A stretch of 34,959 nt of DNA, from positions 18,679 through 53,637 of the forward strand of contig JAJQEV010000079.1 in assembly GCA_021201475.1 (NCBI GenBank). The letters are read 5' to 3'. This stretch comes from Clostridiales bacterium. GTDB lineage: Bacteria > Bacillota > Clostridia > Oscillospirales > Oscillospiraceae. Made by a program: the position numbers and the translations under genes. Position 1 is the first letter of the stretch; each line of letters starts with the position of its first letter. Below are positions 14,250 to 34,959 of the stretch, piece after piece. The notes beneath the pieces are model-generated. The model saw only the letters and a program-made list of their open reading frames with translations. It made no database searches and was not told where the DNA came from.

Positions 14250-15218
14250 ATGTATCAGCCCAGTAAAAAGAACAAAGCGAAGCGCCAGGCCCGCAGCCAG
14301 GCCCGGCAGGAGAAGACCTCAGCCAGCGGCCAGCCGGGCAGCATGACGGTGCAATGGTATCCGGGGCACATGGCCAAGACCCGCCGCATGATTCAGGAGA
14401 ACCTGAAGCTGGCGGATTTGGTGGTGGAGATTATCGACGCCCGCATCCCCGTCTCCAGCCGCAACCCGGATTTGGACGAACTGGTGGGGGAGAAGCCCCG
14501 CCTCATCCTCTTAAACCGGGCCGACCAGGCCGACCCCGGAATGAACCGGGTGTGGTCGGACTGGTTCCGCGCCCAGGGCCTTTCCGTCCTGCAAACGGAC
14601 TGTAAGACCGGCGCAGGGGTGAAGCAGTTCCCCGCCGTGGTGCGGGGCATCCTAGCGGACAAAATCGCCCGGTGGGAGGAGCGGGGCCAGGTGGGCCGCC
14701 CCATCCGGGTGATGGTGGTGGGGGTACCCAACGTGGGTAAGTCCACCTTCATCAACCAGGTGGCCCAGCGGAAGGCCGCCGCCGCCGAGAACCGCCCCGG
14801 CCTGACCCGGGGCAAGCAGTGGGTGACAGTAGACGCCGGGCTGGAACTGCTGGACACGCCGGGCATCCTCTGGCCCAAGTTTGAGGATGAGACGGTGGGG
14901 CTACACCTGGCCTTCACCGGCGCGGTGAAGGATACCATCATGGATTTGGAAACCCTGGGCTGCCACCTCATCCTTCTGCTGGCCCGGCGCTACCCGGAGG
15001 CCGTGCAGGCCAGATATAAAATCGACACGCCGGAGGACGCCCAGGGCTGGGAACTGCTGGAGGCCGCCGCCAGGAAGCGGGGCTTCCTGGTGTCCGGCGG
15101 CAAGGTGGATTTGGAGCGGATGGCGCGGGTGCTGCTGGAGGAGTACCGCTCCGGCAAGCTGGGGCGGTTCACGCTGGAGGAACCTCCGGCCGGGAAAGAG
15201 GAACTCTCATCAACTTAA
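14250..15218 (+). CDS. ylqF: Ribosome biogenesis GTPase YlqF/RbgA
   Basis: Circularly permuted GTPase needed for late 50S assembly. The motif order is G4 (NRAD, residues 89-92), G1 (GVPNVGKST, 158-166), G3 (DTPG, 202-205), as expected. At 322 aa it is longer than the usual 280-290 because of a 31-residue Lys/Arg-rich N-extension before MTVQWYPGHMAKTRR, where most family members start. The ATG at 14250 has a nearby GGTGGGG; the internal ATG at 14343 has no clear ribosome binding site, so the longer form is kept, with doubt. The last codons and stop (EELSST) lie inside the terminal repeat of element A. Confidence 0.93.
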   Translation: MYQPSKKNKAKRQARSQARQEKTSASGQPGSMTVQWYPGHMAKTRRMIQENLKLADLVVEIIDARIPVSSRNPDLDELVGEKPRLILLNRADQADPGMNRVWSDWFRAQGLSVLQTDCKTGAGVKQFPAVVRGILADKIARWEERGQVGRPIRVMVVGVPNVGKSTFINQVAQRKAAAAENRPGLTRGKQWVTVDAGLELLDTPGILWPKFEDETVGLHLAFTGAVKDTIMDLETLGCHLILLLARRYPEAVQARYKIDTPEDAQGWELLEAAARKRGFLVSGGKVDLERMARVLLEEYRSGKLGRFTLEEPPAGKEELSST

Positions 15219-15614
15219 AGACGCAATCTATCCTGAGTTGAGGAGCTTAACGTATCCGTACAGTTGAGATGTTATCCATCGTTGGACTATAAAATTGCAC
15301 GTTCCGCCCGCCAACGGCGAGGGCGGAACGGCAATCGTACCCAGCCGCCATGGGCGGCAGTCTCAGCAGGTATCAAGTCACATCGTCTGTTGCCTGATAG
15401 ACCACTTGATTGAAGGACAAGGCGAAGCCCACAGTGGGATAGGGGAAGGTTCTTAGGGAGGGGCGAGGCCCCGAAGCCCCTCCTTAAGCCGCCCTCTTTT
15501 GCTACTTTTCTCGGCGGAGCGAGAAAAGTAGGCCATGCCCTGGCAAGGGCAAACAACCTGTTTCCTTTATCAATCCTTATCCACGGAAATTACTCTTGTC
15601 CTGATAACTTTACC
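15200..15614 (+). repeat. Dispersed non-coding element, full copy A (MITE-like/structured RNA)
   Basis: About 415 bp, alignable along its length with copy B at 29512-29919. The left end (GGAACTCTCATCAACT) and the reversed right end (GGTAAAGTTATCA) form imperfect terminal inverted repeats. Internal features are a 9-bp stem with nested GCC/GGC (15301-15309/15321-15329), a GCCGCC-ATG-GGCGGC hairpin, a CTTAGGGAGGGG...CCCCTCCTTAAG stem, and a perfect 12-bp stem with GCGGAG loop (15502-15513/15520-15531). It overlaps the ylqF 3' end and stops one base before the GAGAAAGGAG leader of rnhB. It has no credible gene; the 89-codon minus-strand frame is GC-bias driven. Confidence 0.8.
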
Positions 15615-15632
15615 GAGAAAGGAGCCACGCGG

Positions 15633-16250
15633 ATGAACACCCACCCCACCCAGCCCATCGACTTGTGGGCCTATGAGCATCAATACTATGCCGCAGGCTG
15701 CCGCCTCATCTGCGGCGCGGACGAGGCGGGGGCAGGCCCCCTGGCGGGAGCCGTCTACGCGGCGGCGGTGATTCTGCCGAAAGACCTGACGCTGCCCTAC
15801 CTGAACGACTCCAAGAAGGTGACGCCCAAACGCCGGGAGGTGCTGTTCGGCCAAATCAAGGAGCAGGCCGTCGCCTGGGCGGTGGCCTGGGCTACGGAGC
15901 AGGAAATCGACGAAATCAACATCCTGAACGCCCGGATGCTGGCCATGGACAGGGCCATCCGCCAGTTGGACCCCGCCCCGGACTTCGCCCTCATCGACGG
16001 CAACCGCAGCGCCGGAATCTCCGTCGCCAACGCCACCATCGTAAAGGGGGACAGCCACTCCGCCTCCATCGCGGCGGCCTCCATCCTGGCCAAAGTGTCC
16101 AGAGACCACTACATGGAGGACATGGCCCGACTCTACCCGGAGTACCAGTTTGAAAAGCACAAGGGCTACCCCACGAAGCTGCACTATGAACTGCTGCGAA
16201 AATACGGCCCCTGCCCCATCCACCGCAAGACCTTCCTGAAAAAACTATGA
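15633..16250 (+). CDS. rnhB: Ribonuclease HII
   Basis: Removes ribonucleotides and RNA from DNA-RNA hybrids. The 205-aa protein has catalytic Asp30/Glu31, Asp122 (LIDGN) and Asp158 (VSRDHY), plus NDSKKVTPKRRE and the FEKHKGYPTKLH block. Unusually, the substrate-recognising GRG motif reads GAG (DEAGAGPLAG; Arg to Ala at residue 34, codon GCA). The ATG at 15633 follows AAAGGAG at 8 bases; this site lies just outside element A. It overlaps yraN by 4 bp (ATGA). Confidence 0.94.
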   Translation: MNTHPTQPIDLWAYEHQYYAAGCRLICGADEAGAGPLAGAVYAAAVILPKDLTLPYLNDSKKVTPKRREVLFGQIKEQAVAWAVAWATEQEIDEINILNARMLAMDRAIRQLDPAPDFALIDGNRSAGISVANATIVKGDSHSASIAAASILAKVSRDHYMEDMARLYPEYQFEKHKGYPTKLHYELLRKYGPCPIHRKTFLKKL

Positions 16251-16612
16251 CGCGGGAACAGTCTTTGGGCGGTCTGGGGGAAGGGCTGACCGTCCGGCAC
16301 CTGGAGCGCCGGGGCTACGAGATTTTAGACCGGAACTGGCACTGCCGGTACGGGGAGTTGGACATCGTAGCGGCAAACGAGGCGTACCTGGCCTTTGTGG
16401 AGGTCAAGACCCGGAGGGACAGCCGCTACGCTCCGGCCCGGGACGCGGTGAACCGGCGCAAGCGGGAGAAGTTGCTCCTCACCGCCCAGGCGTGGCTGGC
16501 GGAGCACCCGGCGGAGGGGCGGCAGCCCCGGTTTGACGTGGCGGAGGTTTACACCGAGGAAGGGGGCGGCAGGCCCCTCCTCAACTATCTGGAAAATGCG
16601 TTTGGAGGCTAA
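16247..16612 (+). CDS. yraN: YraN family (UPF0102) endonuclease-like protein
   Basis: A 121-aa protein with the family's GE(G)...A..L...GY.IL.RNW pattern and the restriction-endonuclease-like core GELDIVA...FVEVKTR (D and ExK). The role is unknown; DNA-processing is suggested by the fold and by its frequent pairing with rnhB. The start ATG overlaps the rnhB stop (ATGA), so it is translationally coupled and lacks its own ribosome binding site. Confidence 0.92.
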   Translation: MTREQSLGGLGEGLTVRHLERRGYEILDRNWHCRYGELDIVAANEAYLAFVEVKTRRDSRYAPARDAVNRRKREKLLLTAQAWLAEHPAEGRQPRFDVAEVYTEEGGGRPLLNYLENAFGG

Positions 16613-16617
16613 GCAAG

Positions 16618-17553
16618 ATGCAAAAAAAGATACCGCTGTTTGACGGCCACTGTGACACCCTTTCACGGCTGAACTACGTCCCCCAGGAGCATATCGCAGG
16701 CAACTCCGGCCACTGGGATTTGGACAAGATGGGGCGTTTCGGCCCTCAGGCCCAGGTGATGAGCTTGTTCTGGGACTCCGCAAAGCCCTTCACCAGGCAT
16801 ATGGTGAAGCAGGAACTGCGCACCTTCAAGCGGGAGGTGTCCATTTACCGGGACAGGGCGGCCTTCTGCACCAACATGGAGGAGGCGAAGGCCGCCTGGA
16901 AGGAGAACAAGGTGGCCCTGTTCCTCTCCATCGAGGGGGCGGAGCTTTGGGGCTGCACCCTAAGCGACCTGGAGAATGCCTATGCCGCCGGCGTCCGCAT
17001 CATCAACCTGACCTGGAACCACGCCAACGCCCTGTCCGGCAGCAACGTGGAGGAGCCGGAGCGGGGCCTCAGCGAGGAGGGCCGGGCCTATGTGCAGCGG
17101 ATGCAGAAGCTGTATATGCTGGTGGACGTATCCCACCTGTCCGACCAGGGATTCTGGGACGTGATGGAGATTACGAAAATGCCCGTCATCGCCAGCCATT
17201 CCAACAGCCGGGCGGTGCAAAATCACCCCCGCAACTTGACGGATGAAATGTTTACTGCTATTATGAAGTGGCATGGTGTGGCAGGATTGAATGTATACAC
17301 CGACTTCCTAGGGCAGGGCAGGGTCACGGAGGACGACCTGCTCCGCCACCTGGAGCATTTCCTGGCCCTGGGCGGCAGCCGGGCGGTGGCCCTGGGGGGC
17401 GACTGGGACGGATGCCGCAGCCTGCCGGAGGGATACACCGGCATTTGGAGCTGGGCCAACCTTTACGAGCGGCTGCTGCGGGAGAACTACAGCGAGGAAC
17501 TGGTAAGCGACCTGTTCTTCCACAACTTCGCCCGCGTGATGAACAAGCTGTGA
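16618..17553 (+). CDS. Membrane dipeptidase-type metallopeptidase (M19)
   Basis: A 311-aa protein of the M19 family, a TIM-barrel metal hydrolase acting on dipeptides. Metal-ligand motifs are visible: His11/Asp13 (DGHCDT), Glu106 (SIEGAE), His173 (VSHLS), His194 (ASHSN) and GGDWDG at 260-265. There is no signal peptide, so it should be cytoplasmic, as is usual in Firmicutes. The ATG follows GGAGG at 9 bases, with the site overlapping the yraN end. The actual substrate (peptide or D-amino-acid dipeptide) cannot be told. Confidence 0.92.
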   Translation: MQKKIPLFDGHCDTLSRLNYVPQEHIAGNSGHWDLDKMGRFGPQAQVMSLFWDSAKPFTRHMVKQELRTFKREVSIYRDRAAFCTNMEEAKAAWKENKVALFLSIEGAELWGCTLSDLENAYAAGVRIINLTWNHANALSGSNVEEPERGLSEEGRAYVQRMQKLYMLVDVSHLSDQGFWDVMEITKMPVIASHSNSRAVQNHPRNLTDEMFTAIMKWHGVAGLNVYTDFLGQGRVTEDDLLRHLEHFLALGGSRAVALGGDWDGCRSLPEGYTGIWSWANLYERLLRENYSEELVSDLFFHNFARVMNKL

Positions 17554-17585
17554 GCCATCGGCTTGCATGGAAAGGAACAATGTCA

Positions 17586-19076
17586 ATGTATTACGTCAGC
17601 ACGAGAAACAAGGCGCTGCGCTACACGGCGGCGCAGGCCATTGCCCAGGGCCTCAGCCGGGAGGGCGGGCTGTTCGTCCCGGAGACGATTCCCGCCCTGC
17701 CGGAGGGGAAGCTGGAGGAGCTGAAGGGGATGAACTACCAGCAGCGGGCCGTCTACATCATGGGCCTGTACCTGGACGGCTTCGCCCAGGAGGAGTTGGA
17801 GGCGCGGGCGGCCCTGGCCTACGCCGTGCCGGAGAAGTTTGACCATCCCGACGTGGCCCCGTTGCGAAAGGTGGACGGGAACACCTACTGCCTGGAGCTG
17901 TGGCACGGCCCCACCTGCGCCTTTAAGGATATGGCGCTGCAAATGCTGCCCCACGAGTTGAGCCTGGCCCTGAAAAAGAACGACGAGCACCGCACCGCCT
18001 GCATCCTGGTAGCCACCTCCGGCGACACTGGCAAGGCGGCGCTGGAGGGCTTCAAGGACGTAGACCAGACCAAGATACTGGTGTTCTACCCCAAGGACGG
18101 CGTCTCCGACATTCAGAAGCTGCAAATGGCCACCCAGGAGGGGGGCAACGTGGGCGTGTCCGCCGTGGTGGGCAACTTTGACGATGCTCAGACCGGGGTG
18201 AAAACCCTGTTCTCCGACGAGGCGCTGCGGGAGGAGCTGTCCCGCCGGGGCTACTTCCTGTCCTCCGCCAACTCCATCAACTGGGGGCGGGTGCTGCCTC
18301 AAATCGTCTACTACATCTCCGCCTACTGCGACCTGCTGAAGCAGGGGGCCATCCAGTGCGGGGAGGAAATCAACATCTGCGTCCCCACCGGCAACTTCGG
18401 CAACATCCTGGCGGCCTACTACGCCAAGCGGATGGGCCTGCCGGTGAAGAAGCTGGTCTGCGCCTCCAACGCCAACAACGTGCTGACCGACTTCATCCGC
18501 ACCGGCGTTTATGACCGGAACCGACCCTTCTACACCACCGTCTCCCCGTCCATGGACATCTTGATTTCCTCCAACCTGGAGCGGCTGCTGTACCTGCTCT
18601 CCGGCGAGGACGACGGGCTGACGGCGGACTATATGGCCCAACTCTCCGCCACCGGGCGGTATGAGGTCTCCCCCGCCATCCGGGCGCAGATTCAGAACTT
18701 GTTCGGGGCGGGCTTCTCCACGGAGGAACAGACCGAGGCCATGATCGGCGCCATGAAGCGGGAGCAGGACTACCTCATCGACACCCACACGGCGGTGGCC
18801 TTCGAGGTGCTGCGCCAGTACCGGGCGGAGACAGGGGACGGCACCATCGCGGTGGTGGCCTCCACCGCCAGCCCCTTCAAGTTCTGCGACGCCGTGCTGG
18901 ACGCCCTGGGCGTGACGGAAAAGCAGTCCGGCACCGACCTTCTCGACCAGCTGGCCCAGGTCAGCGGCGTAGCCGCCCCGGCCCCCCTCGCCACGCTGAA
19001 GGACAAGCAGGTGCGCTTCGACGGCTGGACAGAGAAGGAAGCCATGATGCAGGTCGTCACCGACTTTTTGCAGTAA
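17586..19076 (+). CDS. thrC: Threonine synthase
   Basis: PLP enzyme converting O-phosphohomoserine to threonine. The 496-aa protein has MYYVSTRN...LSREGGLFVPE at the start, PLP-binding Lys114 in HGPTCAFKD, ATSGDTGKAAL and PTGNFGNILAAYYA. The start is set at the ATG at 17586 because the GGAAAGGA site is 9 bases away; the ATG at 17580 would leave only 3. It belongs to the long-chain ThrC group by length. It lies 32 bp after the dipeptidase in the same run; no other threonine-pathway genes are nearby. Confidence 0.96.
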   Translation: MYYVSTRNKALRYTAAQAIAQGLSREGGLFVPETIPALPEGKLEELKGMNYQQRAVYIMGLYLDGFAQEELEARAALAYAVPEKFDHPDVAPLRKVDGNTYCLELWHGPTCAFKDMALQMLPHELSLALKKNDEHRTACILVATSGDTGKAALEGFKDVDQTKILVFYPKDGVSDIQKLQMATQEGGNVGVSAVVGNFDDAQTGVKTLFSDEALREELSRRGYFLSSANSINWGRVLPQIVYYISAYCDLLKQGAIQCGEEINICVPTGNFGNILAAYYAKRMGLPVKKLVCASNANNVLTDFIRTGVYDRNRPFYTTVSPSMDILISSNLERLLYLLSGEDDGLTADYMAQLSATGRYEVSPAIRAQIQNLFGAGFSTEEQTEAMIGAMKREQDYLIDTHTAVAFEVLRQYRAETGDGTIAVVASTASPFKFCDAVLDALGVTEKQSGTDLLDQLAQVSGVAAPAPLATLKDKQVRFDGWTEKEAMMQVVTDFLQ

Positions 19077-19088
19077 AGCGGGGACGCC

Positions 19089-19775
19089 ATGGCACTTTAC
19101 GCGATAGGCGACCCCCACCTGTCCCTGAACAGCCCCAAGTCCATGGAGGTCTTTGGCGGCAACTGGGTGGGGTATGTGGAGAAGCTGAAGGAAGGCTTCT
19201 CGGTGGTGCAACCGGAGGACACGGTGGTGCTGGCCGGCGACCTGAGCTGGGGGATGAGCCTCCAGGAGGCGGAGGCCGACTTCGCCTTCCTGAACGCCCT
19301 GCCCGGCACCAAGGTGCTGCTGAAGGGCAACCACGATTACTGGTGGGAGACGGCCAGCAAAATGACGAAGTTCTTTGCCGAACATCACTTTGACACCTTC
19401 CACATCCTCCACAACAACTGCTTCCTCTATGGAGACTATGCCCTCTGCGGCACCCGGGGCTGGTTCATCGACGAGGAGAAGGGGGAGCACAACGAGAAAA
19501 TGCTCCACCGGGAGGTGTGCCGCCTGGAGGCGTCGCTGAAAGCGGCGGGGGAGCGGGAGAAGCTGGTATTCCTCCACTATCCCCCCATTTATCAGGGGTA
19601 CCGGTGCCCGGAAATTCTGGCCCTGCTCAGGGAGTACGGCGTGAAGCGGTGCTGCTACGGCCACCTCCACAGCCAGAGCTGCCGCCTGGCGGTGCAGGGA
19701 GAGCGGGATGGGACGGAGTTTTCCCTGATTTCGGCGGACTATCTGAATTTCATCCCCAAAAAAATCTTGAATTAG
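19089..19775 (+). CDS. Metallophosphoesterase
   Basis: A 228-aa calcineurin-like phosphoesterase with the five metal-binding blocks in order: GDPHLS, GDLSWG, GNHDYWW, LHYPP and GHLH. It resembles the YkuE/YmdB-like cytoplasmic phosphohydrolases found in Clostridia; the substrate is unknown. The ribosome binding site is weak (GGGGA), and the start is 12 bases past the thrC stop, so translation may be coupled. It is the last gene of the ylqF-to-phosphoesterase run. Confidence 0.9.
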   Translation: MALYAIGDPHLSLNSPKSMEVFGGNWVGYVEKLKEGFSVVQPEDTVVLAGDLSWGMSLQEAEADFAFLNALPGTKVLLKGNHDYWWETASKMTKFFAEHHFDTFHILHNNCFLYGDYALCGTRGWFIDEEKGEHNEKMLHREVCRLEASLKAAGEREKLVFLHYPPIYQGYRCPEILALLREYGVKRCCYGHLHSQSCRLAVQGERDGTEFSLISADYLNFIPKKILN

Positions 19776-19797
19776 TGGAAAAATTTAAAAAAAACAG

Positions 19798-19826
19798 TGG
19801 CAATCTCTGCTGGCATCTGTTAAAAT
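19798..19826 (+). promoter_or_regulatory. Candidate promoter of tig
   Basis: TGGCAA (19798-19803), 17 bases, TAAAAT (19821-19826), after an A-rich stretch (19779-19795) that could act as an UP element. The tig leader would be about 85 bases. Confidence 0.5.
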
Positions 19827-19919
19827 AGTTAGACGTAGAATTGTATCATTGCAGGATCGGTTCGTTTCGGCGGGATTCTGCGGAATAGTTGCCCTCAGGG
19901 CAAGCAGGAGGAAACAAAC

Positions 19920-21290: not shown

Positions 21291-21305
21291 TTCGACCGGC
21301 TTCGC

Positions 21306-21334
21306 TGTATATTTTCCCTCGCATGGGATATAAT
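21306..21334 (+). promoter_or_regulatory. Possible promoter of clpP
   Basis: A perfect TATAAT (21329-21334) has only a poor -35 (TGTATA at 21306-21311). No CtsR-type heptad repeat is visible nearby. Confidence 0.4.
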
Positions 21335-21386
21335 GGCTCTGTGGCAGTCTACAGACCCGTATCCCGACTTACAAAGGAGTATTATC

Positions 21387-21968
21387 ATGAGTTTAGTTCC
21401 TTATGTAGTAGAACAGACCAACCGCGGCGAGCGCAGCTATGACATCTTCTCCCGCCTGCTGAATGACCGTATCATTTTCCTGGGCGAGGAAGTGAACGAC
21501 ACCACCGCCTCCCTGGTGGTGGCCCAGCTGCTGTACCTGGAGGCGCAGGACCCGGATAAGGACATTCAGCTGTATATCAACTCCCCCGGCGGTTCCGTCA
21601 CCGCCGGTATGGCGATTTATGACACGATGCAATACATTAAGGCGGATGTCAGCACCATTTGCATCGGCATGGCAGCCAGCATGGGCGCGTTCCTGCTGTC
21701 CGCCGGGACGAAGGGCAAGCGCTACGCCCTGCCCAACGCGGAGGTCATGATTCATCAGCCCTCCGCCGGTACCCAGGGCAAGGTCACGGATATGGAAATC
21801 GACGTGGCCCACGTCCTGCGCATCAAGCAGCATATCAATGAGATTTTGGCGGCCAACACCGGCAAGACGCCGGAGGAGGTCAAGGCGGACACCGAGCGCG
21901 ACCATTGGCTCACCGCCCAGGAGGCCAAGGAGTACGGCCTGATCGACGAAGTGATCGCCCACCGCTGA
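21387..21968 (+). CDS. clpP: ATP-dependent Clp protease proteolytic subunit
   Basis: Serine protease barrel that degrades proteins fed by ClpX. The 193-aa protein has the catalytic triad Ser98 (GMAASMGAF), His123 (MIHQPSAG) and Asp172 (ERDHWL), and the [18 protein letters not shown] block. The start is the ATG at 21387, after AAAGGAG at 7 bases; an upstream in-frame ATG at 21333 overlaps the -10 box and is rejected. clpX follows after 62 bp containing a GC-rich hairpin. Confidence 0.98.
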
Positions 21969-21977
21969 TGTGCGACC

Positions 21978-22002
21978 GGGGGCGGGAGACGCGCCCGCCC
22001 CC
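21978..22002 (+). promoter_or_regulatory. GC-rich intercistronic hairpin between clpP and clpX
   Basis: A 9-bp all-GC stem (21978-21986/21994-22002) has a 7-base loop and no T-tract, so it is unlikely to terminate; it may protect the clpP message or adjust the clpP:clpX ratio. Confidence 0.4.
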
Positions 22003-22030
22003 GCCCTTAGCATGAAAAGGAACACAGTTT

Positions 22031-25881: not shown

Positions 25882-25889
25882 GGTGACTT

Positions 25890-26652: not shown

Positions 26653-26686
26653 GCTCAGGAGGAAAAACGGATTATGCAGAGAAAAC

Positions 26687-26708: not shown

Positions 26709-26735
26709 GAAAATCTTTTTTGCTATTGTTATAAT
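26707..26735 (+). promoter_or_regulatory. Promoter of the rhamnosidase gene
   Basis: TTGAAA (26707-26712), 17 bases, TATAAT (26730-26735); the leader to the ATG at 26850 is about 108 bases. Confidence 0.75.
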
Positions 26736-26768
26736 AGAAGCATAAGAGCGGAAGTGCGCTTTACAGGA

Positions 26769-26814
26769 GGCGGCAGGCGGTTCCGGCCCGGAGCCAGGGC
26801 GACAGGCTGCCGTC
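26769..26814 (+). promoter_or_regulatory. Stem-loop in the rhamnosidase leader
   Basis: An 8-bp outer helix (26769-26776/26807-26814) encloses a 7-bp GGTTCCG/CGGAGCC hairpin (26779-26795), each with one G-U pair. No known riboswitch is recognised; the role is unknown. Confidence 0.35.
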
Positions 26815-26849
26815 CAACGAAATTCAAATTAGGAAAGAGAGGAACGTTT

Positions 26850-29402
26850 ATGCTGAACATCACCCGCTTCGCAGTGGAGAACCTGACCGAGGGCTGCGTC
26901 ACCGACGCGGCCCAGCCCCGCTTCACCTTCACCCTGGGCAGTGACCGCACAGGGGTCACTCTGGCCAGCGCCAGGCTGGAGGTAAACGGCTGGCAGACCG
27001 ATACAGATACCCAGACCGGCGTGGCCTACGGCGGCGCGCCCCTGAAACCCTTCACCCGGTACGAGGCGACCCTCACCGCCACGGACGACGCCGGGGAGAC
27101 GGCCTCCGCCGCCCTGACCTTTGAAACCGGGCGCATGGGCCAGCCCTGGCAGGCCCAGTGGATCAGCGACCCCACCTATCAGTTCACCGAGAAGAAGGTC
27201 TCCCCCATCCCCATGGTGTTCCGGAAGCAGATCTCCGTCTCCAAGCCGGTGGCCTCCGCCCGGCTGTACGCCACGGCGATGGGCATTTACGAGCTGACCC
27301 TGAACGGCAAGAAGGTGGGCGACCAGTATTTCGCCCCCGGCTTCACCTCCTATAAGTCCCAGCTCCAGTATCAGACCTACGATGTCACCGACCTGCTGAG
27401 CGGGGACAACACCCTGCTGGCCACGGTGGCCGGCGGCTGGGCGGTAGGCTCCTTCGTCTTTACCCGGAAGAACCGCATCACCGCTGACCGGCAGGCCCTG
27501 TTGTGTGAGCTGCGCATCACCTACGCCGACGGCAGCCAGGAGATTATCGGCACCGACGGCAGTTGGGAGGTCACGGAGTCCGGCCCCGTCCGCATGGCGG
27601 ACATCTATGACGGCGAGACCTATGACGCCACGGTGGATTTGAACAAAGCCTCCTGGAACAAGGCCGCCCAGGAGACCCTGAAAATCCACCCCCAACTGCT
27701 GGCGGACTATGGCGCACCGGTGCGGGCCCATGAGGAGCTGCATCCCATCTCCTGTAAGGAGTTGCCCGGCGGTCTGCTGATTTACGACTTCGGCCAGAAC
27801 TTCGCCGGTGTGGTGAAGCTGAAGCTGACGGGCAAGGCGGGCCAGGTGGTGACTGTGAAGCACGCCGAGATTCTGAACGCCGACGGCACCCTGAATGTGG
27901 CCTTTCTCCGCACCGCCAAGGCCACCGCCACCTACACCTGCAAGGACGGCGAACAGACCTACAGCCCCCGGCAGACCTACATGGGCTTCCGCTATGTCAG
28001 CGTGGAGGGCATCGGCGAGGCCGACGTGGAGGTCTCCGCCCTGGCGCTGTACTCCGACCTGACCCCCAACGGCGGCTTTGCCTGCTCCAATGAGATGCTG
28101 AACCAGCTCCAGAGCAACATCCTGTGGGGCAGCAAGTCCAACCTGATGGACATCCCCACCGACTGCCCCCAGCGGGACGAGCGGATGGGCTGGACAGGCG
28201 ACATCGCCGTGTTCGCCCCCACCGCCTGCTACAACTTTGACATGAGCCGCTTCCTGGAGAAGTGGCTGCTGGACGTGAAGTCGGAGCAGCTGCCCTCCGG
28301 CGGCGTCCCCAACACGGTGCCTGCCCAGGGCTACGGCTTCCCGGCCACCATGCCCAAGATGGCGGTGGCCTGGTGGGACGACGCCTGCATCCTGGTACCT
28401 TGGGCGGAGTACCAGGCCCGGGGCGACGTGGAGCTACTGCGTACCATGTACCCCTCCATGAAGAAGTATGTGAAGGCCAGCAAGTTCTGGTGCAGCTTCG
28501 GCTTCGGCAAGAACCGCTACATCTGGAACGTCCCCGGCGCCCTGGCCTTTGGCGACTGGATTGCCCCGGACGTACCCCAGATGAGCCAGTGGCAGGGCCG
28601 CGTGAAGTGGACGGGTACCGCCTCCCTCCGGAACACCAGCGCCATTGTGGCCCAGGTGGCGGAGATTCTGGGCGAGAAGGAGGACGCCGCCTATTACCGC
28701 GACCTCAGCGATAAGACGGCGGACGCCTACTGCTCCATCCTCACCGACGGCAACGGCAAGCTGCTGGAGGAGTTCCAGACCGCCTACGTCCTGCCCATCT
28801 ACCTGGATATGTTCCCCGACGAGGCCACCAAGCGGAAGGCCACCGACAATCTGGCCGCCCTGGTGGAGAAGAATGACTACTGCATCGGCACCGGCTTCCC
28901 CGGCACCCCCTATATCCTGTTCGCCCTGGCGGACAATGGCCGGGAGGACGTGGCCTATAAGATGCTGATGAACACGAAATGCCCCTCCTGGCTGTACGAG
29001 GTCAAGATGGGGGCCACCACCATCTGGGAGCGGTGGGACGGCTTGGACGAGAACGGCGAGTGCCCCATCGGGGACGACGGCACCGACTCCATGATCTCCT
29101 ACAACCACTACGCCAGCGGCGCGGTGGGGGCCTTCCTGTATCAGCGGGTAGCCGGTATCGCCCCCATTGAGGCGGGCTACAAGTCCTTCCAGGTGAAGCC
29201 CCTGGTGGGCGGCGGCCTGACCTGGGCAGAGGGCCGGGTCAACACCCCCTATGGCGAAATCGCCTCCCGCTGGCAGGTCGAGGACGGCACGTTCACCGTC
29301 ACCGTTCAGGTGCCGGTGGGAACCAGTTGCCAGCTGACCCTCCCCGACGGCACCAGCTGCACCCTGTGCAGCGGGGCGTACAGCCGGAGCTGCAAGATGT
29401 GA
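26850..29402 (+). CDS. Alpha-L-rhamnosidase (GH78)
   Basis: Hydrolyses terminal L-rhamnose from plant glycosides such as flavonoid rhamnosides. The 850-aa protein has an N-terminal Ig-like domain (ENLTEGCVTDAAQPRFTF), a jelly-roll Bac_rhamnosid_N domain (LYATAMGIYELTLNGKKVGDQYFAPGFTSY), a concanavalin-like domain (YDFGQNFAGVV), an (alpha/alpha)6 barrel with Glu444 in DCPQRDERMGWTGD and Glu727 in TTIWERWDG as likely catalytic acids, and a C-terminal beta-domain. No signal peptide, so it is cytoplasmic and acts on imported glycosides. The ATG at 26850 follows AGAGGA. It pairs functionally with the transporter downstream. Confidence 0.93.
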   Translation: MLNITRFAVENLTEGCVTDAAQPRFTFTLGSDRTGVTLASARLEVNGWQTDTDTQTGVAYGGAPLKPFTRYEATLTATDDAGETASAALTFETGRMGQPWQAQWISDPTYQFTEKKVSPIPMVFRKQISVSKPVASARLYATAMGIYELTLNGKKVGDQYFAPGFTSYKSQLQYQTYDVTDLLSGDNTLLATVAGGWAVGSFVFTRKNRITADRQALLCELRITYADGSQEIIGTDGSWEVTESGPVRMADIYDGETYDATVDLNKASWNKAAQETLKIHPQLLADYGAPVRAHEELHPISCKELPGGLLIYDFGQNFAGVVKLKLTGKAGQVVTVKHAEILNADGTLNVAFLRTAKATATYTCKDGEQTYSPRQTYMGFRYVSVEGIGEADVEVSALALYSDLTPNGGFACSNEMLNQLQSNILWGSKSNLMDIPTDCPQRDERMGWTGDIAVFAPTACYNFDMSRFLEKWLLDVKSEQLPSGGVPNTVPAQGYGFPATMPKMAVAWWDDACILVPWAEYQARGDVELLRTMYPSMKKYVKASKFWCSFGFGKNRYIWNVPGALAFGDWIAPDVPQMSQWQGRVKWTGTASLRNTSAIVAQVAEILGEKEDAAYYRDLSDKTADAYCSILTDGNGKLLEEFQTAYVLPIYLDMFPDEATKRKATDNLAALVEKNDYCIGTGFPGTPYILFALADNGREDVAYKMLMNTKCPSWLYEVKMGATTIWERWDGLDENGECPIGDDGTDSMISYNHYASGAVGAFLYQRVAGIAPIEAGYKSFQVKPLVGGGLTWAEGRVNTPYGEIASRWQVEDGTFTVTVQVPVGTSCQLTLPDGTSCTLCSGAYSRSCKM

Positions 29403-29414
29403 GCGGTTGGCGGC

Positions 29415-29442
29415 TAGCTGTTAGTTGTTAGCTGTTAGCTGC
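29415..29442 (+). repeat. Tandem heptamer repeat (TAGCTGT)x4
   Basis: Four consecutive 7-mers: TAGCTGT, TAGTTGT, TAGCTGT, TAGCTGC. It lies 12 bases after the rhamnosidase stop; function unknown. Confidence 0.8.
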
Positions 29443-29479
29443 ACCCTCTTGCTCCCTTTTCAGGGGAGCAAGAGGGTGC
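29441..29479 (+). terminator. 16-bp perfect hairpin after the rhamnosidase
   Basis: Arms 29441-29456 and 29464-29479 pair perfectly around a TTTTCAG loop. The stem is very stable but is followed by GATTCC rather than a T-run, so it may be a weak terminator or message-stabilising hairpin. Confidence 0.6.
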
Positions 29480-29511
29480 GATTCCTGCCACGGTCTTGCC
29501 GCTCCTGAAAG

Positions 29512-29919
29512 GGCAATGTTATCAACTGAAAGTTGCAATCTATCCTGGGATGAGGGGAATAACGCAGCCGCACAGTCAGATGTTATCCACCGTTGGATAA
29601 TAAAATTGCACGTTCCGCCCGCCAACGGCGAGGGCGGAACGGCAATCGTCCCCAGCCGCCATCGGCGGCAGTCTCAGCAGTGTGAAGTCACATCGTCTCT
29701 AACGGGATAGACCACCTGATTGAGGGATAAGGCGAAGCCGCCAGTGGGATAGGGGGAAGGTTCTTAGGGAGGGGCGAGGCCCCGAAGCCACTCCCTAAGC
29801 CGCCTTCTTTCCCCCATTTCTTGGCGGAGCAAGAAATGGGGCCCCCGGAGGGAAAACACCTATTTCCTTTATCCATCCTTGTCTAAGGAGGGCAATCCTC
29901 CTAAATTGATGAAATTGCC
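29512..29919 (+). repeat. Dispersed non-coding element, full copy B
   Basis: About 408 bp, homologous to copy A. Ends are GGCAATGTTATCAACT on the left and, reversed, GGCAATTTCATCAATT on the right. The inverted match may extend outward (GCTCC-TGAAAG left; TTTTC-GGGGAGC right). It has the same hairpin order as A: GTTCCGCCC/GGGCGGAAC (29612-29620/29632-29640), GCCGCC-ATC-GGCGGC, CTTAGGGAG/CTCCCTAAG, and the 12-bp stem with GCGGAG loop (29812-29823/29830-29841), whose arms differ from A's by four compensated pairs. It separates the rhamnosidase from the transporter. No credible gene inside. Confidence 0.8.
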
Positions 29920-29923
29920 TTTT

Positions 29924-29943
29924 CGGGGAGCGTGGATTGAAAT
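29924..29943 (+). repeat. Orphan half of a type I-C-like CRISPR repeat
   Basis: CGGGGAGCGTGGATTGAAAT matches the 3' half of typical type I-C repeats (GCGTGGATTGAAAT end). No second repeat, spacer series, leader or cas gene is present. It directly abuts the right end of copy B. Confidence 0.4.
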
Positions 29944-30010
29944 TCCTATGAGCCGCTGGCCGACGAGACCCCCTCCCCAACTCACCAGAAAAAAGGAGCG
30001 CTGTTACATA

Positions 30011-31453
30011 GTGAGCAAACGACCCAAATCAGGCGGCTTCTGGAGCACGCCCCTGACCCGTTCCTTTATTCACTCTGATACCGTGAAGCTGCTGGAAATG
30101 CTGATGGGCTACCTCATCGGCCCCTTCGGGGCGCTGCTGTCCTCCGGCATCTTTGCCAGCTTCCTGAATAAGTACTTCACCGATGTGCTGCTGCTGGACA
30201 CCGGCTTCGTGTCCGCCTTGCAGCTGGTATCCACCGTTCTCATCGTGGCGGCCAACCTGATCGTGGGTCAGCTTATCGAGCGCACCCGCTGTCTGGCGGG
30301 CAAGGCCCGGCCCTGGGTGCTGCTGTCGGCGCTGACCCTGTCGGTAGCCAGCCTGCTGATGTTCGTCGTCCCCTTCCGGAACGAGACGGCGAAGATGGTG
30401 TGGATCGCCGTCGCCTACAACCTTTATTACTCGGTGGCCTACCCCATCTACAGCACCGCCAACGCCACCCTGATTCCCGTCTCCACCCGGAACAGCCAGC
30501 AGCGCGGCGCCCTGGCTTCCTTCGCCAACATTGCCGCCCTGGGGGCCGCAGGCGTCGGCTCCATGGTTTTCCCCATCCTGGTGTCCAACGTCATGGGCAA
30601 CAGCCAGCGGATGTGGTTCTTGGTGATGCTGGCCGTCGCTCTCTTCTCCGCCCTGACCATCTTCTTCCAATATAAGTTCACCCGCGAGCGGGTCACGGAG
30701 GAGGGCGCGTCCGCAGCCGACCCCCGGCAGAACGCCGCCCCGCCCCTGGGGCAGCAGCTGAGGGCCGTTGCCAGCGAAAAGTGGTGGTGGATTGCCATCA
30801 TCTTTTACCTGGTGTTCCAGTGGGCCGGGGTCATGAAGAACGGCTCCATGAGCTACTTCTGCCAGTGGGTCATTGACGCCACCCCTTTGGGGGGCGACTG
30901 GGGGGTCGCCCAGACCCTGCTCAGCGTCATGGGCGCTATCCCCATGGCCTTGGCGGCCCTGTTCGTGGTGCCGCTGGCCAACCGGTTTGGCAAGCGCGGG
31001 CTCTGCTTTGCCGGTATGGTGCTGGGCGTCGTCGGCGGCGTGATTGCCGGGCTGGGCGGCGGCAGCATCGTGCCGGTGGCCATCGGCGTGGCGCTGAAAT
31101 GCCTGGGTTCCTCCCCTGGCTGCTACCTGATCCTGGCTATGCTGGCCGATGTCATTGACCATATCGAGTTCAAGAGCGGCATCCGCACCGACGGCCTGAC
31201 CATGAGCATTTACAGCTCCCTGGCGGCGGCTCCCGTTATGAACGCCGTGTTCATGGCCATGCTGGGTGCAGCTGGCTACGACGCCACCGCCGCGGCCCAG
31301 ACCGCCGCCGTGCAGGCCACCATCTCCATCAGCTATATCTGGGTGGAGACCATCGCCTTCGCCGTAGACGCCCTTCTGGTGCTGTTCTTCACCGTGGAGA
31401 AGAACCTGCCCGCAGAGCAGGCCGCCATCGCGGAGCGGAAGAAGCAGGAGTAA
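30011..31453 (+). CDS. MFS/GPH-family sugar:cation symporter
   Basis: A 480-aa integral membrane protein with about 11-12 hydrophobic segments, of the glycoside-pentoside-hexuronide:cation (MelB-like) type within the MFS. Typical segments are LEMLMGYLIGPFGALLSSG near the start and CLGSSPGCYLILAMLADVIDHIEFKSGIRTDG late. The start is taken as GTG at 30011 (MSKRPKSGG), with AAAAGGAG about 12 bases upstream. A longer frame reaching back into element B (FRGAWIEI) is rejected as repeat-derived. Following a GH78 enzyme, it probably imports rhamnosides or rhamnose (inference). A strong terminator follows. Confidence 0.86.
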   Translation: MSKRPKSGGFWSTPLTRSFIHSDTVKLLEMLMGYLIGPFGALLSSGIFASFLNKYFTDVLLLDTGFVSALQLVSTVLIVAANLIVGQLIERTRCLAGKARPWVLLSALTLSVASLLMFVVPFRNETAKMVWIAVAYNLYYSVAYPIYSTANATLIPVSTRNSQQRGALASFANIAALGAAGVGSMVFPILVSNVMGNSQRMWFLVMLAVALFSALTIFFQYKFTRERVTEEGASAADPRQNAAPPLGQQLRAVASEKWWWIAIIFYLVFQWAGVMKNGSMSYFCQWVIDATPLGGDWGVAQTLLSVMGAIPMALAALFVVPLANRFGKRGLCFAGMVLGVVGGVIAGLGGGSIVPVAIGVALKCLGSSPGCYLILAMLADVIDHIEFKSGIRTDGLTMSIYSSLAAAPVMNAVFMAMLGAAGYDATAAAQTAAVQATISISYIWVETIAFAVDALLVLFFTVEKNLPAEQAAIAERKKQE

Positions 31454-31526
31454 ATGTCCTGCAGGCTGCGCTTCGTCCGGCGGCATCCTGCTTCCGCATT
31501 ACAAAGAAGGAATCGGCTTCCCCGAG

Positions 31527-31569
31527 GGAGGCAGCTTCGGAAACGGAGCTGCCTCCTTTGAGCGTTTTT
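31527..31569 (+). terminator. Rho-independent terminator after the transporter
   Basis: GGAGGCAGCT (31527-31536) pairs with AGCTGCCTCC (31547-31556) and closes on a GAAA loop; TTTGAGCGTTTTT follows. Confidence 0.8.
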
Positions 31570-31647
31570 GGGTGTACACTGTTTATGAACGTGCATCCAG
31601 CAAATTTGCATAGACTTTGGCAGTTTTTGTGTGGATCCTGAGGAACC

Positions 31648-31755
31648 GTCACTGACCGAGAGCACAAATCAAAATTATAGCAAGCAGTAGTCAGGGCCCG
31701 CCGGGAGGGCCAACCATGTTTTCCTTCCGGTATCCTTGCCTGAGGAGTTGCCCCT
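31648..31755 (+). repeat. Decayed 3' remnant of the dispersed element, copy D
   Basis: Aligns with the reverse complement of copy C: GTCACTG-n-CCGAG, AGCA(A/G)GC(A/G)GTA-n-TCAG, GGCCCGCCGGGA, TTTTCCTT and GTATCCTTG(C/T)CT(G/A)AGGAG occur in the same order and spacing. The terminal inverted repeat is not recognisable. The rest of the gap 31570-31845 holds only the tex promoter. Confidence 0.6.
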
Positions 31756-31771
31756 ACCCTTTTGGGTACTG

Positions 31772-31800
31772 TTGCACTTTCCCCCAAACTGTGGTAAACT
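31772..31800 (+). promoter_or_regulatory. Candidate promoter of tex
   Basis: TTGCAC (31772-31777), 17 bases, TAAACT (31795-31800) preceded by TGG, an extended -10. Confidence 0.6.
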
Positions 31801-31845
31801 GATACCGCTGTCAAATAAATCACCCCCTACAAAGGAGCAACCGTC

Positions 31846-34014
31846 ATGGAACCCATCATCACCACCCTTGCCGCCGAGCTGAACCTGAACCCCACCTATG
31901 TGGAGAACGTCGTCCGTCTGGTGGATGAGGGCAACACCATCCCCTTTATCGCCCGCTATCGGAAGGAGCTGCACGGCGGCATGGACGATACCGCCCTCCG
32001 CGCCCTCTTTGACCGCCTGAACAGCCTCCGGGCCTTAGCCGCCCGGAAGGAGGAGGTGAAGCGCTCCATTGAGAACCAGGGTAAGCTGACGGAGGAGTTG
32101 GCCGCCGCCATTGACGCCGCCGCCACCCAGACCGCCGTAGAGGACCTGTATCGCCCCTATAAGCAGAAGCGCCGCACCCGCGCCACCATCGCGAAAGAGC
32201 GGGGGCTGGAACCGCTGGCGGCCAAGCTGCTGCTCCAGCAGCCGAACGCCGACCCGGAGGCCATGGCCGCTCCCTATGTGGATGAGGAGAAGGGCGTACC
32301 AGACGTGGCCGCCGCCCTCCAGGGGGCCAACGACGTGCTGGCCGAAACGTTCAGCGACGACGCGGACATCCGCGCTCTCCTGCGGGAGCTGGCCCAGAAG
32401 CGGGGCAGCATCGTCTCCACAGCGGCGAAGCCTGACGAAGACAGCGTTTACCGGATGTACTATGAGTTCTCCCAGCCGGTGTCCAAGGTGCAGGGCCACC
32501 AGACCCTGGCCATGAACCGGGGGGAGAAGGAGGGCTTCCTGAAAGTCTCCCTGAACCTGGACGGGGAACTGGCCCTCCGGCAGATGGGCCGCAGGCTGCT
32601 CCACGGCACAGGCAAATGCACCGACCTGGTCCGCGTCGCCATCGAGGACAGCTACAGCCGCCTGATTTTCCCCTCCCTGGAGCGGGAGATACGCTCCGCC
32701 CTGACGGAAACCGCCAGCGAGGGGGCCATCAGGATGTTCGCCCTGAACTTGCGGCCCCTGCTAATGCAGCCCCCGGTGAAGGGCAGCGTCACCATGGGCC
32801 TGGACCCCGGCTATGCCCACGGCTGCAAGGTGGCGGTGGTGGACGGCACCGGCAAGGTGCTGGACACCACGGTGGTCTACCCCACCTTCGGCGCTCGCCG
32901 CCGGAACGAGTGCATTCAGGAGCTGAAAGGGCTGATTTTGAAGCATCGCGTCCGCCACCTCTCCATCGGCAACGGCACCGCCTCCCGGGAGACGGAGGCC
33001 ATGGCGGTGGATCTGATCCGCGACCTGGCGGGTACCCCCATGGAGGGCAAGGTCAGCTATATGATCGTCAACGAGGCGGGGGCCAGCGTCTATTCCGCCT
33101 CCAAGCTGGCGGCGGAGGAGTTCCCCCAGTACGACGTGAACCTGCGCTCCGCCGTCTCCATCGCCCGGCGGCTCCAGGATCCCCTGGCGGAACTGGTGAA
33201 AATCGACCCCAGGGCCATCGGCGTGGGGCAGTATCAGCACGATATGCCCCAGGCCCGGCTCAGCGAGGCCCTGGACGGGGTGGTGGAGGACTGCGTCAAC
33301 GCAGTGGGGGTGGACGTGAACACCGCCTCCCCCTCCCTCCTCCAGCGGGTGTCCGGCCTGAACGCCACCACCGCGAAAAACATCGTGAAGTACCGGGAGG
33401 AGAATGGTATCTTTACCAGCCGGAAGCAGCTGTTAAAGGTGCCCAAGCTGGGGCCGAAAGCCTTTGAGCAGTGCGCGGGCTTCCTCCGGGTGCCGGAGAG
33501 CGACAACCTGCTGGACAACACCGGCGTCCACCCGGAGAGCTACCAGGCGGCGGAGAAGCTGCTGGCCCTGTGCGGCTACACCCTGGAGGACGTGGAGCAG
33601 GGGCGCATCGTCCTGCTGTCCGGCCGGTTGAAGCAGGTGGGGGAGGCCAGAGCCACCGCCTACTGCGGCGTGGGCATGGCTACTCTGAACGACATCGTGA
33701 AGGAGTTGATGAAGCCGGGCCGCGACCCCCGGGACGAGCTGCCCAAGCCCATCCTCTGCACCGACGTGCTGGAGATGAAGGATTTGAAGCCTGGGATGGT
33801 GCTGACCGGCACGGTGCGCAACGTCATCGACTTCGGCGTATTCGTGGATATCGGCGTCCACCAGGACGGGCTGGTGCATATCTCCCAGGTGGCTGACCGG
33901 TATATCAGGCACCCCAGCGAGGTGGTGTCTGTGGGCGATGTGGTAAAGGTCGTGGTGCTGGACGTGGACGAGAAGAAAAAACGCATTTCGCTGTCCATGA
34001 AGCAGGCGAAGTGA
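31846..34014 (+). CDS. tex: Tex family S1 RNA-binding/transcription accessory protein
   Basis: A 722-aa protein of standard length. It has a helical Tex N-domain (EGNTIPFIARYRKELHGGMDD), a YqgF/RNase H-like domain with Asp320 in GLDPGYAHG, helix-hairpin-helix motifs (VDVNTASPSLLQRVSGLNATTAKNIV; LLKVPKLGPKAFEQCAGF) and a C-terminal S1 domain (about 648-717, GTVRNVIDFGVFVDIGVHQDGLVHIS). It binds nucleic acid and is implicated in transcription and RNA quality control. The ribosome binding site is AAAGGAG at 8 bases. It is probably monocistronic. Confidence 0.96.
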   Translation: MEPIITTLAAELNLNPTYVENVVRLVDEGNTIPFIARYRKELHGGMDDTALRALFDRLNSLRALAARKEEVKRSIENQGKLTEELAAAIDAAATQTAVEDLYRPYKQKRRTRATIAKERGLEPLAAKLLLQQPNADPEAMAAPYVDEEKGVPDVAAALQGANDVLAETFSDDADIRALLRELAQKRGSIVSTAAKPDEDSVYRMYYEFSQPVSKVQGHQTLAMNRGEKEGFLKVSLNLDGELALRQMGRRLLHGTGKCTDLVRVAIEDSYSRLIFPSLEREIRSALTETASEGAIRMFALNLRPLLMQPPVKGSVTMGLDPGYAHGCKVAVVDGTGKVLDTTVVYPTFGARRRNECIQELKGLILKHRVRHLSIGNGTASRETEAMAVDLIRDLAGTPMEGKVSYMIVNEAGASVYSASKLAAEEFPQYDVNLRSAVSIARRLQDPLAELVKIDPRAIGVGQYQHDMPQARLSEALDGVVEDCVNAVGVDVNTASPSLLQRVSGLNATTAKNIVKYREENGIFTSRKQLLKVPKLGPKAFEQCAGFLRVPESDNLLDNTGVHPESYQAAEKLLALCGYTLEDVEQGRIVLLSGRLKQVGEARATAYCGVGMATLNDIVKELMKPGRDPRDELPKPILCTDVLEMKDLKPGMVLTGTVRNVIDFGVFVDIGVHQDGLVHISQVADRYIRHPSEVVSVGDVVKVVVLDVDEKKKRISLSMKQAK

Positions 34015-34036
34015 GGAAAGCTGCGCCTAAATCAAC

Positions 34037-34077
34037 AACCCCCTCCGTCCGACTGCCGGACGGAGGGGGTTCTCTTT
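34037..34077. terminator. Bidirectional terminator between tex and the rhomboid gene
   Basis: A 14-bp perfect stem (34037-34050/34058-34071) with a 7-base loop is followed on the plus strand by TCTCTTT. The minus strand has only a modest T-rich tail. Confidence 0.8.
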
Positions 34078-34119
34078 CCAATGGGATTTCGGAACAGCAG
34101 GGTCTCGGCGGCACACCAG

Positions 34120-34692
34120 TCAGCCGCCGCTCCCCTGTCGCCGGTGGAAGTACAGCCCCATCAATCCGCCCACCAGGCCGCCCACCACATGGGTCAGCTG
34201 GGAGATATTGTCCGCCGTGGTGACGCCGCTGACGATCTCCTGCCCCAAAAACAGGACGACCACCAGAATCAGCGTCAGGGGTATCTCCCCCTTCCCGAAG
34301 CTGGACAGGGAGGACAGCACGATCATCATAAACACCACCCCGCTGGCCCCCAGCAGGGCCTGGCCGGGGAACAGGGCGATGAACACCAGGCCGGTGGTCA
34401 GCGCCGTGACGCAAATCATCAGGAGCAGCGGCCTGCTGCCGTACTTTTCCTCCAGCATGGGGCCCAGGAGGAGGATATAGGTCATGTTGCTGATGTAATG
34501 CTCCCACCCGCTGTGGCCCAGCACATGACCGAAGAGCCGCACATAGGTCAGCGGGTCGGTGGGGGAGGAGCGGTAAACGGAGAACACCAGGCCGGTGCTG
34601 GCCCCGTCCGTCAGGAAGCTGAGCAGCAGCGCCCCCAGGCTCAGCAGGGCAAAGGTCAGCACCACGGGGGAATTGTAGCGGATGCGTTTCAA
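34120..34692 (-). CDS. Rhomboid family intramembrane serine protease
   Basis: A 190-aa protein with about six membrane segments. The catalytic Ser117 lies in LGASGVV and His168 in LTHVVGG; His65/Asn69 (HYISN) are the oxyanion-type residues. The length fits the compact bacterial six-helix form. The start is TTG at 34692 (MKRIRYNSP), with AGAAAGGA about 12 bases upstream; no ATG or GTG is better placed. Copy C of the dispersed element lies just upstream in the same orientation. Substrates unknown. Confidence 0.9.
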   Translation of the reverse strand: MKRIRYNSPVVLTFALLSLGALLLSFLTDGASTGLVFSVYRSSPTDPLTYVRLFGHVLGHSGWEHYISNMTYILLLGPMLEEKYGSRPLLLMICVTALTTGLVFIALFPGQALLGASGVVFMMIVLSSLSSFGKGEIPLTLILVVVLFLGQEIVSGVTTADNISQLTHVVGGLVGGLMGLYFHRRQGSGG

Positions 34693-34714
34693 ACCGGGTC
34701 AGAGTCCTTTCTGT

Positions 34715-34959
34715 GGCAATGTCATCAATTTAAGGGAATTACGCTCCTTAGACAAGGATACTATAAGGAAATAAAGCGTTTGCCTTCCCGGCGGGCCTGA
34801 GTACCGCCTGCTGACCCTTTACGGTATCCTCCTCGGACAGTGACCCTCGCCAGCGTAGCTGGCATCGGTTTCCGGCTAAAAATGTGCCGCTGGCACATTT
34901 TTGGACGCCGTAAATTGCTCCGCCAAGAAATGGGGGAAAGAAGGCGGCTTAGGGAGGGG
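34715..34959 (-). repeat. Dispersed non-coding element, copy C (inverted, cut by window edge)
   Basis: The 3' end lies at 34715 (GGCAATGTCATCAATT on the plus strand, the terminal repeat). Going inward, GTATCCTTGTCTAAGGAG matches B; then comes a module of about 120 bp absent from A and B, with hairpins GCCAGC-GTA-GCTGGC (34849-34863) and an 11-bp AAAAATGTGCC stem (34878-34902). Then the GCGGAG loop and the left arm of the B-type stem (34916-34936) and AAGCCGCC...CTTAGGGAGGGG resume. The 3' arm of the 12-bp stem is missing. It continues beyond the window. Confidence 0.75.

Follow-up and report, generated by a model that had tools for sequence, protein, structure and literature searches.

What kind of genetic element is repeated in a 34,959-nt stretch of DNA from a Clostridiales bacterium of the family Oscillospiraceae (assembly GCA_021201475.1, contig JAJQEV010000079.1, positions 18,679 to 53,637; hereafter the window)? 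The repeat is about 410 bp long and is bounded by terminal inverted repeats (TIRs). A preliminary description offered two alternatives, a non-autonomous element like a miniature inverted-repeat transposable element (MITE) or a mobile structured RNA. The data lend support to the two together. We consider it probable that these are non-autonomous mobile DNA elements whose body encodes a structured RNA with a triplex pseudoknot. The strands of the pseudoknot and the predicted triplex strand covary across lineages.

Three copies in the window (A, B and C) had been said to align over long stretches, and BLAST agrees: A and B are 84.5% identical over 380 nt, and B and C are 98% identical over 45 nt and 78% over 77 nt. 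Copy C, which is inverted and truncated, has its ends and part of its body in common with the other copies. A fourth sequence, D, had been called a remnant at 31648-31755. Its homology to C (79%) is confined to 70 nt (32-100 of D), so only window 31679-31747 is supported as a remnant and the rest of D is not. The proposed TIRs match the consensus GGCAATGTCATCAAYTTAA, but the 5' repeat of A has three substitutions and its 3' repeat is more degenerate (by eye). As had been supposed, no credible protein is encoded: among ORFs of at least 80 aa, the one within A is an antisense ORF of 89 aa.

The family is far larger than the four copies first counted, with near a hundred copies in the genome of the window. 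In this genome (G000; 2.69 Mb in 129 contigs, the window lying in contig C99), at least 46 places match A (the best 40 of 174 candidates were scored). The core CAGCCGCCATNGGCGGCAG has 101 exact occurrences there (reversed control, 0), and the end sequence AATGTCATCAAYTTAA, with up to two mismatches, has 120 (control, 0). Six sister species have 105, 82, 79, 78, 58 and 54 core motifs, two more have 2 and 1, and the motif is absent from 23 of 32 genomes of the genus. All 80 named records among the matches listed are metagenome-assembled genomes called 'Clostridiales bacterium'. The repeat also bears on assembly: of the 46 scored matches in G000, at least 18 are no more than 15 nt away from the end of a contig. 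Alignments were turned into two covariance models, with which relatives were found beyond the genus: R1 was built from 50 copies (191 positions), and R2 from 23 sequences taken from several families (85 positions). The parts of the copies in the window are as follows.

15200 to 15614, + strand: copy A, a monomer in the interval between an rbgA-like gene and rnhB (R1, 210.8 bits at 15342-15533).
15200 to 15218, + strand: 5' TIR of A, degenerate (three substitutions against GGCAATGTCATCAAYTTAA).
15294 to 15335, + strand: H1 hairpin of A (ATTGC..GCAAT), read from the sequence; its class is included in the H1 pair counts.
15442 to 15533, + strand: conserved RNA core of A, consisting of the P5 (H5) hairpin and the pseudoknot (R2, 80.6 bits).
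15489 to 15493, + strand: pseudoknot strand CCGCC of A, with its partner at 15513-15517 (covarying pairs in the family).
15494 to 15500, + strand: predicted triplex strand CTCTTTT of A, matching the purine strand of stem 2 (family covariation).
15502 to 15531, + strand: H6 hairpin (stem 2) of A, with loop GCGGAG (family covariation).
29512 to 29919, + strand: copy B, a monomer with both TIRs (R1, 218.2 bits at 29653-29843).
29512 to 29530, + strand: 5' TIR of B (two substitutions against the consensus).
29753 to 29843, + strand: conserved RNA core of B (R2, 83.7 bits).
29800 to 29804, + strand: pseudoknot strand CCGCC of B, with its partner at 29824-29828 (covarying pairs in the family).
29805 to 29810, + strand: predicted triplex strand TTCTTT of B (family covariation).
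29813 to 29842, + strand: H6 hairpin (stem 2) of B (RNAalifold and family covariation).
29901 to 29919, - strand: 3' TIR of B (two substitutions against the consensus).
31679 to 31747, + strand: D, a 3' remnant resembling the inserted module and 3' end of C (79% over 70 nt).
34715 to 34959, - strand: copy C, inverted and ending at the window edge (BLAST; R1, 30.2 bits).

The sequence CCGCC lies directly 5' of H6 and is complementary to the H6 loop GGCGG. This pairing is CCGCC/GGCGG in 118 of 126 copies, TCGTC/GACGA in five, with CCGCT in two and TCGTC/GGCGG in one; the pattern behind these copies fixes CG in both pseudoknot strands and takes loop 1 from a short list, while leaving the covarying base free. 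Alignment A1 has 24 copies, namely B and 23 of the 24 segments chosen. Its pseudoknot and stem are 99.2% paired, and their covariation score exceeds that of each of 500 shuffles and of every slid version. The pseudoknot is also found across lineages. Thirty-two representatives have a mean of 3.66 bp, compared with a permuted mean of 2.37 and a maximum of 2.97 (2000 permutations), in a set that still contains unrelated hairpins.

The base following CCGCC covaries with a pair of the H6 stem. Among the 126 copies, C goes with C-G in 68, T with T-A in 56 and C with T-A in two, so that 124 are consistent. Both states are present on four alleles of the intervening stem (115 copies), and simple linkage therefore does not explain the covariation. 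A pyrimidine-motif triple helix requires parallel strands, and the tract YTCTTT has this orientation relative to the purine strand RAGAAA. Joint changes of both strands are seen elsewhere: CTTTTC/GAAAAG (L321), TTTTTT/AAAAAA (L323) and CTTTTT/GAAAAA (L325 and L327). In L322, an 11-base match of TTTCCCTCTTT with AAAGGGAGAAA was seen by eye, in a register other than that used by the parser. Over the 37 parsed elements of 39 (L326 and L334 have no parsed pseudoknot), the triplex strand has a mean match of 5.43, compared with a permuted maximum of 4.81 (5000 permutations); in the parser's register the match is 0 for L219a, 1 for L320 and 2 for L322, and L317 is also oddly parsed. For the seven elements without AGAAA near the start of the purine strand, the observed mean was reached in five of 5000 permutations. 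Two features of a triplex pseudoknot are seen in this family: the pseudoknot strands covary, and the predicted triplex strand follows the Hoogsteen code. From this covariation we predict a pyrimidine triple helix with loop 1 in the major groove of stem 2.

The remainder of the body, described earlier as a series of GC-rich hairpins, also has changes that point to RNA. RNAalifold gives 43 pairs for 50 copies, 12 of them with compensatory changes; on a sequence-only alignment of 89 segments the hairpins are misaligned and most pairs are missed. In H5, 74 copies give 862 Watson-Crick, 77 G-U, 10 A-C and 87 other cells, and in H1 type 1 there are 16 G-U versus four A-C (73 copies); these cells are not independent events, as the copies are related. 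Since G-U far exceeds A-C in H5, the strand bias points to + strand RNA. Alignment A2 (50 of 53 copies) was selected for fixed 5' H5 letters and a GGCGG loop, so we did not use it for the G-U argument or for the pseudoknot. Alignment A3 comprises 23 of 25 rows, with two long L226 copies excluded and three rows trimmed. The folding of B beats 100 of 100 dinucleotide shuffles on both strands (z -5.5 and -4.9). The compensatory changes, together with the G-U excess of H5, point to a structured RNA in which a chain of hairpins ends with an H-type pseudoknot.

The ends of the element are those of mobile DNA. Copies terminate in GGCAATGTCATCAAYTTAA, a sequence of about 19 bp in inverted orientation, and the fetched loci hold 142 distinct end sequences. 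Sixteen end-paired copies measure 402-445 bp; others are shorter or longer, rearranged or carrying inserts. An exact target duplication of 5-6 bp (TGAAA, CTGAAA or TTTCAG) is present in four of the 21 end pairs examined; two of the 21 (3.2 and 3.7 kb) run from one copy to another. In the four with a duplication, the flanks together make up a hairpin repeat that reads CCCC-TTTCA-GGGG or the complement of this, with one half on each side. The same hairpin repeat is found without an insert at six other places, where the target is present once; these are related, not orthologous, empty sites.

Orthologous empty sites exist for copy A. Its neighbours are an rbgA-like gene for a 50S ribosome-binding GTPase and the RNase HII gene (rnhB). 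Among 30 loci compared, 26 have both genes on one fetched stretch, and in 24 of these 26 genus genomes the site is empty, with the two genes 6-40 nt apart (distances run from BLAST hit to BLAST hit). The genomes empty at this site include G022 and G027, in which a few copies are found elsewhere. The site is filled in G000 and G028, where 418 or 411 nt with the element separate the genes. In G017, G029 and G020, the contig stops just upstream of rnhB in sequence that resembles the 3' end of the element (by eye), and in G011 rnhB marks the end of the contig. G000 and G028 have rnhB genes that are 94% identical, yet their orthologous inserts are only 75% alike; elsewhere, A has its best match (87%) at a different site, in G020. 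This suggests that copies at site A may have undergone replacement or conversion. The site of B is also occupied in G017 (L032), with copies that are 91% alike. The element shows several features of a MITE: terminal inverted repeats, target site duplication (in four of 21 end pairs, with uninserted targets carrying the sequence once), short length, many copies and no coding capacity.

Several other repeats are associated with these copies. Another dispersed repeat, about 100-130 nt long and bearing CCCCTTTCAGGGG and CCCCTGAAAGGGG hairpins, is found at L129 780-910, L134 2290-2420 and L094 6120-6250, and its loops are the insertion targets of the element. What seems to be the same site in two species carries the element in one (L052 1507-1915), while the other (L094 5955-6490) keeps both ends with the target hairpin repeat as its interior. 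A module of about 130 nt with a AAAATATGCC..GGCATATTTT or AAAATGTGCC..GGCACATTTT hairpin was seen by eye within the H5 or H6 loops of some copies (L117 870-1160, L023, L029 and L048). In C, this foreign module lies within the H6 loop at window 34780-34914, and by its appearance it may be a nested mobile piece. A number of copies (L032, L023 and L051) have a short palindrome, TAGGGAGCGAAGCGGAAATGCCGCTTGACGGCG, inserted into loop H1; this palindrome also adjoins elements. A third kind of 5' end has the same TIR and lacks H1, the following core being kept (L061, L072, L082, L107, L150 and L163). Directly upstream of B, window 29427-29492 is a long GC-rich hairpin, nearly perfect, whose loop is TTTTC; it adjoins a run of TTAGCTGTTAGCTG repeats.

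Could the element be an ordinary MITE, whose hairpins act as DNA (cruciforms or single-strand hairpins for a transposase) and have no RNA role? The TIRs, the target duplications and the hairpin-loop targets would all be expected of it, mirror-repeat pyrimidine tracts can form H-DNA, and the arms of the head-to-head pairs described below are partly inverted repeats of each other. A and B also lack a match to a + strand promoter. We nevertheless regard this explanation as unlikely. It does not account for G-U lying far above A-C in H5, a pseudoknot with compensatory changes requires a single strand, and conservation of the core extends to relatives that have other flanks.

Candidate mobilising enzymes were sought among three families, DDE_Tnp_1 (PF01609), TnpB (PF07282) and Y1 (PF01797), without success. 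The description of the element as MITE-like and non-autonomous holds as far as the TIRs, target duplication and empty site are concerned; an autonomous partner with the same ends was not found among the loci examined. A guide-RNA role in a TnpB/IscB-type system, as a scaffold (omega RNA or HEARO-like), is scarcely credible. The element is structured, dispersed and pseudoknotted, a likeness of general character, but PF07282 is found in none of 12 carriers (IscB was not searched). Nor does Rfam (4227 families) have a match in the window at the gathering score. A permissive scan of B gave 16 sub-threshold matches of other kinds, namely miRNA-type families plus Pseudomon-1 and SNORA61; the best weak match, mir-6644, is a plain hairpin upstream of B. 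A second permissive scan found T-box and tRNA, both away from the element. We likewise regard as very improbable a repetitive extragenic palindrome (REP) or bacterial interspersed mosaic element (BIME) moved by a Y1 (RAYT) transposase. Palindromes, high copy number and insertion at hairpins would fit, but the element is about 410 bp long with TIRs and target duplication. Moreover, three of the 12 carriers match PF01797, two of them over the cut-off, so that the family is missing from nine carriers in all, G000 among them.

The family contains head-to-head pairs as well as monomers. In G017, 22 minus-plus pairs with a spacing of 255-327 nt and no plus-minus pair within 700 nt were counted by eye, with 100 of the 105 core motifs listed. 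Within 900 nt, the fetched loci of the clade show 17 distinct pairs in minus-plus order against one in plus-minus order. The arms of the 17 minus-plus pairs are unlike in 14, alike in none and untyped in three, and a central AT-rich spacer is common to head-to-head pairs. Among 37 loci of distant relatives, R1 or R2 detects a divergent second copy within 500 nt in eight (L219, L231, L232, L235, L317, L321, L327 and L329), the weaker partner having an E-value of up to 0.004. A motif scan adds the divergent pairs of L221 and L226, and in L226 there is one convergent neighbour as well. BLAST shows the two arms to be inverted repeats of one another in six of the 10 distant pairs. The ancestral unit may have been a head-to-head pair reading outward from its centre.

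Relatives of the RNA core are found outside the genus. R1 matches 22 genomes of the 394 from the order, and 20 of the 22 lie outside the genus; the E-values are rough, and the weakest (0.002-0.003) are doubtful. Thirteen of these 20 have at least two places (six candidates scored in each). R2 matches 29 of 391 class genomes at E 0.01, including 20 outside the order, although the weaker ones are doubtful. In G141, G379, G281 and G267, the copies listed are flanked by unlike sequence, and the copies are thus dispersed there too. Because relatives in other families have the core with other flanks, the RNA core seems to be older than these inverted repeats. A short motif scan matched 101 of 394 genomes. 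This does not count the RNA, since some matches are plain hairpins beside tRNA or 5S genes. Such TTCTTTGCTTACTTTCTTG..CAAGAAAGTAAG hairpins or close variants, without the pseudoknot, were seen by eye in L252, L253 and L261 beside apparent tRNA or 5S rRNA genes, in another family of the order.

The core also occurs in phages. All seven viral contigs picked by motif scan carry it by R2 (E 2e-11 or better); three have similar scores and could be near-identical copies. Phage portal, terminase, scaffold or head proteins are encoded on three of the contigs. In L342 the core (3016-3123) is flanked by the portal and scaffold genes, in L336 (3960-4095) it follows a major head gene, and in L341 (4092-4199) it shares the contig with a head gene. 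BLAST of plasmid and phage collections with three queries gave no match.

The gene context raises another possibility, that the element is a cis-regulatory or RNA-stabilising 3' or 5' untranslated-region device, duplicated and kept for host benefit. Among 57 single copies, 29 are sense to both neighbours, 14 antisense, nine convergent and five divergent, by a crude ORF caller and excluding six copies with far neighbours as well as copies near locus ends. There is a mild orientation bias toward sense, and some copies in G141 lie shortly upstream of a start codon (by eye). Even so, this explanation is doubtful. No common downstream gene was apparent, though no systematic search was made, high copy number is limited to the clade, and there are antisense copies beside phage structural genes.

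A number of results weigh against a mobile element with an RNA core. On the RNA side, H1 type 2 has only 12 G-U versus nine A-C, and the H6 set has 55 versus 43, where a loose pattern let in unrelated hairpins. In A1, further pair types are no more numerous than in shuffles (409 of 500 reached the count). A sigma-70-type promoter had no match on the + strand of A and B. The RNA is antisense to the identified genes in the three phage contigs examined, and the 14 antisense single copies are antisense to both neighbours. R1 matches only G000 in 398 phylum genomes. As for mobility, target duplication is kept in only four of 21 end pairs. PF01609 occurs at six places in four of eight carriers, none of them yielding a transposase whose ends match, and other DDE families were not searched. 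Three of the six PF01609 loci have one unpaired TIR-like string (up to three substitutions in 14), and their inverted repeats differ.

On balance, we favor a non-autonomous element with an RNA core, which could work as follows. A unit of about 410 bp with TIRs of about 19 bp would insert in the loops of GC-rich hairpin repeats and duplicate about 6 bp, as is partly seen above. Transposition would be carried out in trans by a DDE-type enzyme. The + strand would be transcribed into a stable RNA, in which a chain of hairpins is followed by P5 and then by the H-type pseudoknot. Judging from the covariation, the first pseudoknot loop would occupy the major groove of stem 2 and form a U.A-U / C+.G-C triple helix. 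The RNA is most likely what is kept. We may guess that a compact, nuclease-resistant RNA is recognised in trans by the mobilising machinery or makes insertions tolerable inside transcripts. More tentatively, these elements may represent a new class of mobile non-coding RNA: a selfish triple-helix pseudoknot RNA of Clostridia and some phages, whose DNA ends change by lineage, whose fold is selected and whose ancestral unit was two unlike outward RNAs. If the favored reading is right, about 100 intergenic spots per genome in the clade, and more in other Clostridia, would be one unannotated RNA family. Structured RNA and MITE biology would be joined, a natural series of covarying triple helices would be available for testing folding rules, and the RNA fold as the selected part of a mobile element would become testable.

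As had been said of it, the element fits no named family: besides the lack of an Rfam match, nothing on it was found in the open-access literature, a search outside which most subscription papers lie. As mobile DNA it is MITE-like; as RNA no description was found, and the chance that it represents a new class of RNA is real. Bacterial MITEs, including ERIC, Correia and YPAL, are short and geneless, with terminal inverted repeats, target duplication and high copy number. The present element shares all of these properties, but its body has a predicted pseudoknotted RNA core that is conserved beyond the MITE ends, and a parent insertion sequence was not found. Like HEARO and the IscB-TnpB omega RNAs, it is a mobile, dispersed, structured RNA; it differs in having no Rfam match, in the absence of the TnpB zinc-ribbon family from all 12 carriers and in ends that are inverted repeats with target duplication. 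REP, BIME and REPIN sequences are described as extragenic palindromes in many copies (PMC3116915). The element shares this property but is about ten times longer, with TIRs and target duplication, and the Y1 transposase is missing in nine of 12 carriers. The head-to-head pairs resemble foldback transposons in being long inverted repeats with a short centre, but their arms are of two types, each of which would read outward as a structured RNA. SAM-II and telomerase RNA are H-type pseudoknots with a major-groove triple helix. The same architecture is given for SAM-V (PMC6061858). In the present element, as in these three RNAs, loop 1 pyrimidines are predicted to lie along stem 2; unlike them, it is a high-copy mobile sequence, belongs to none of them by Rfam and has no linked metabolic gene that we noticed.

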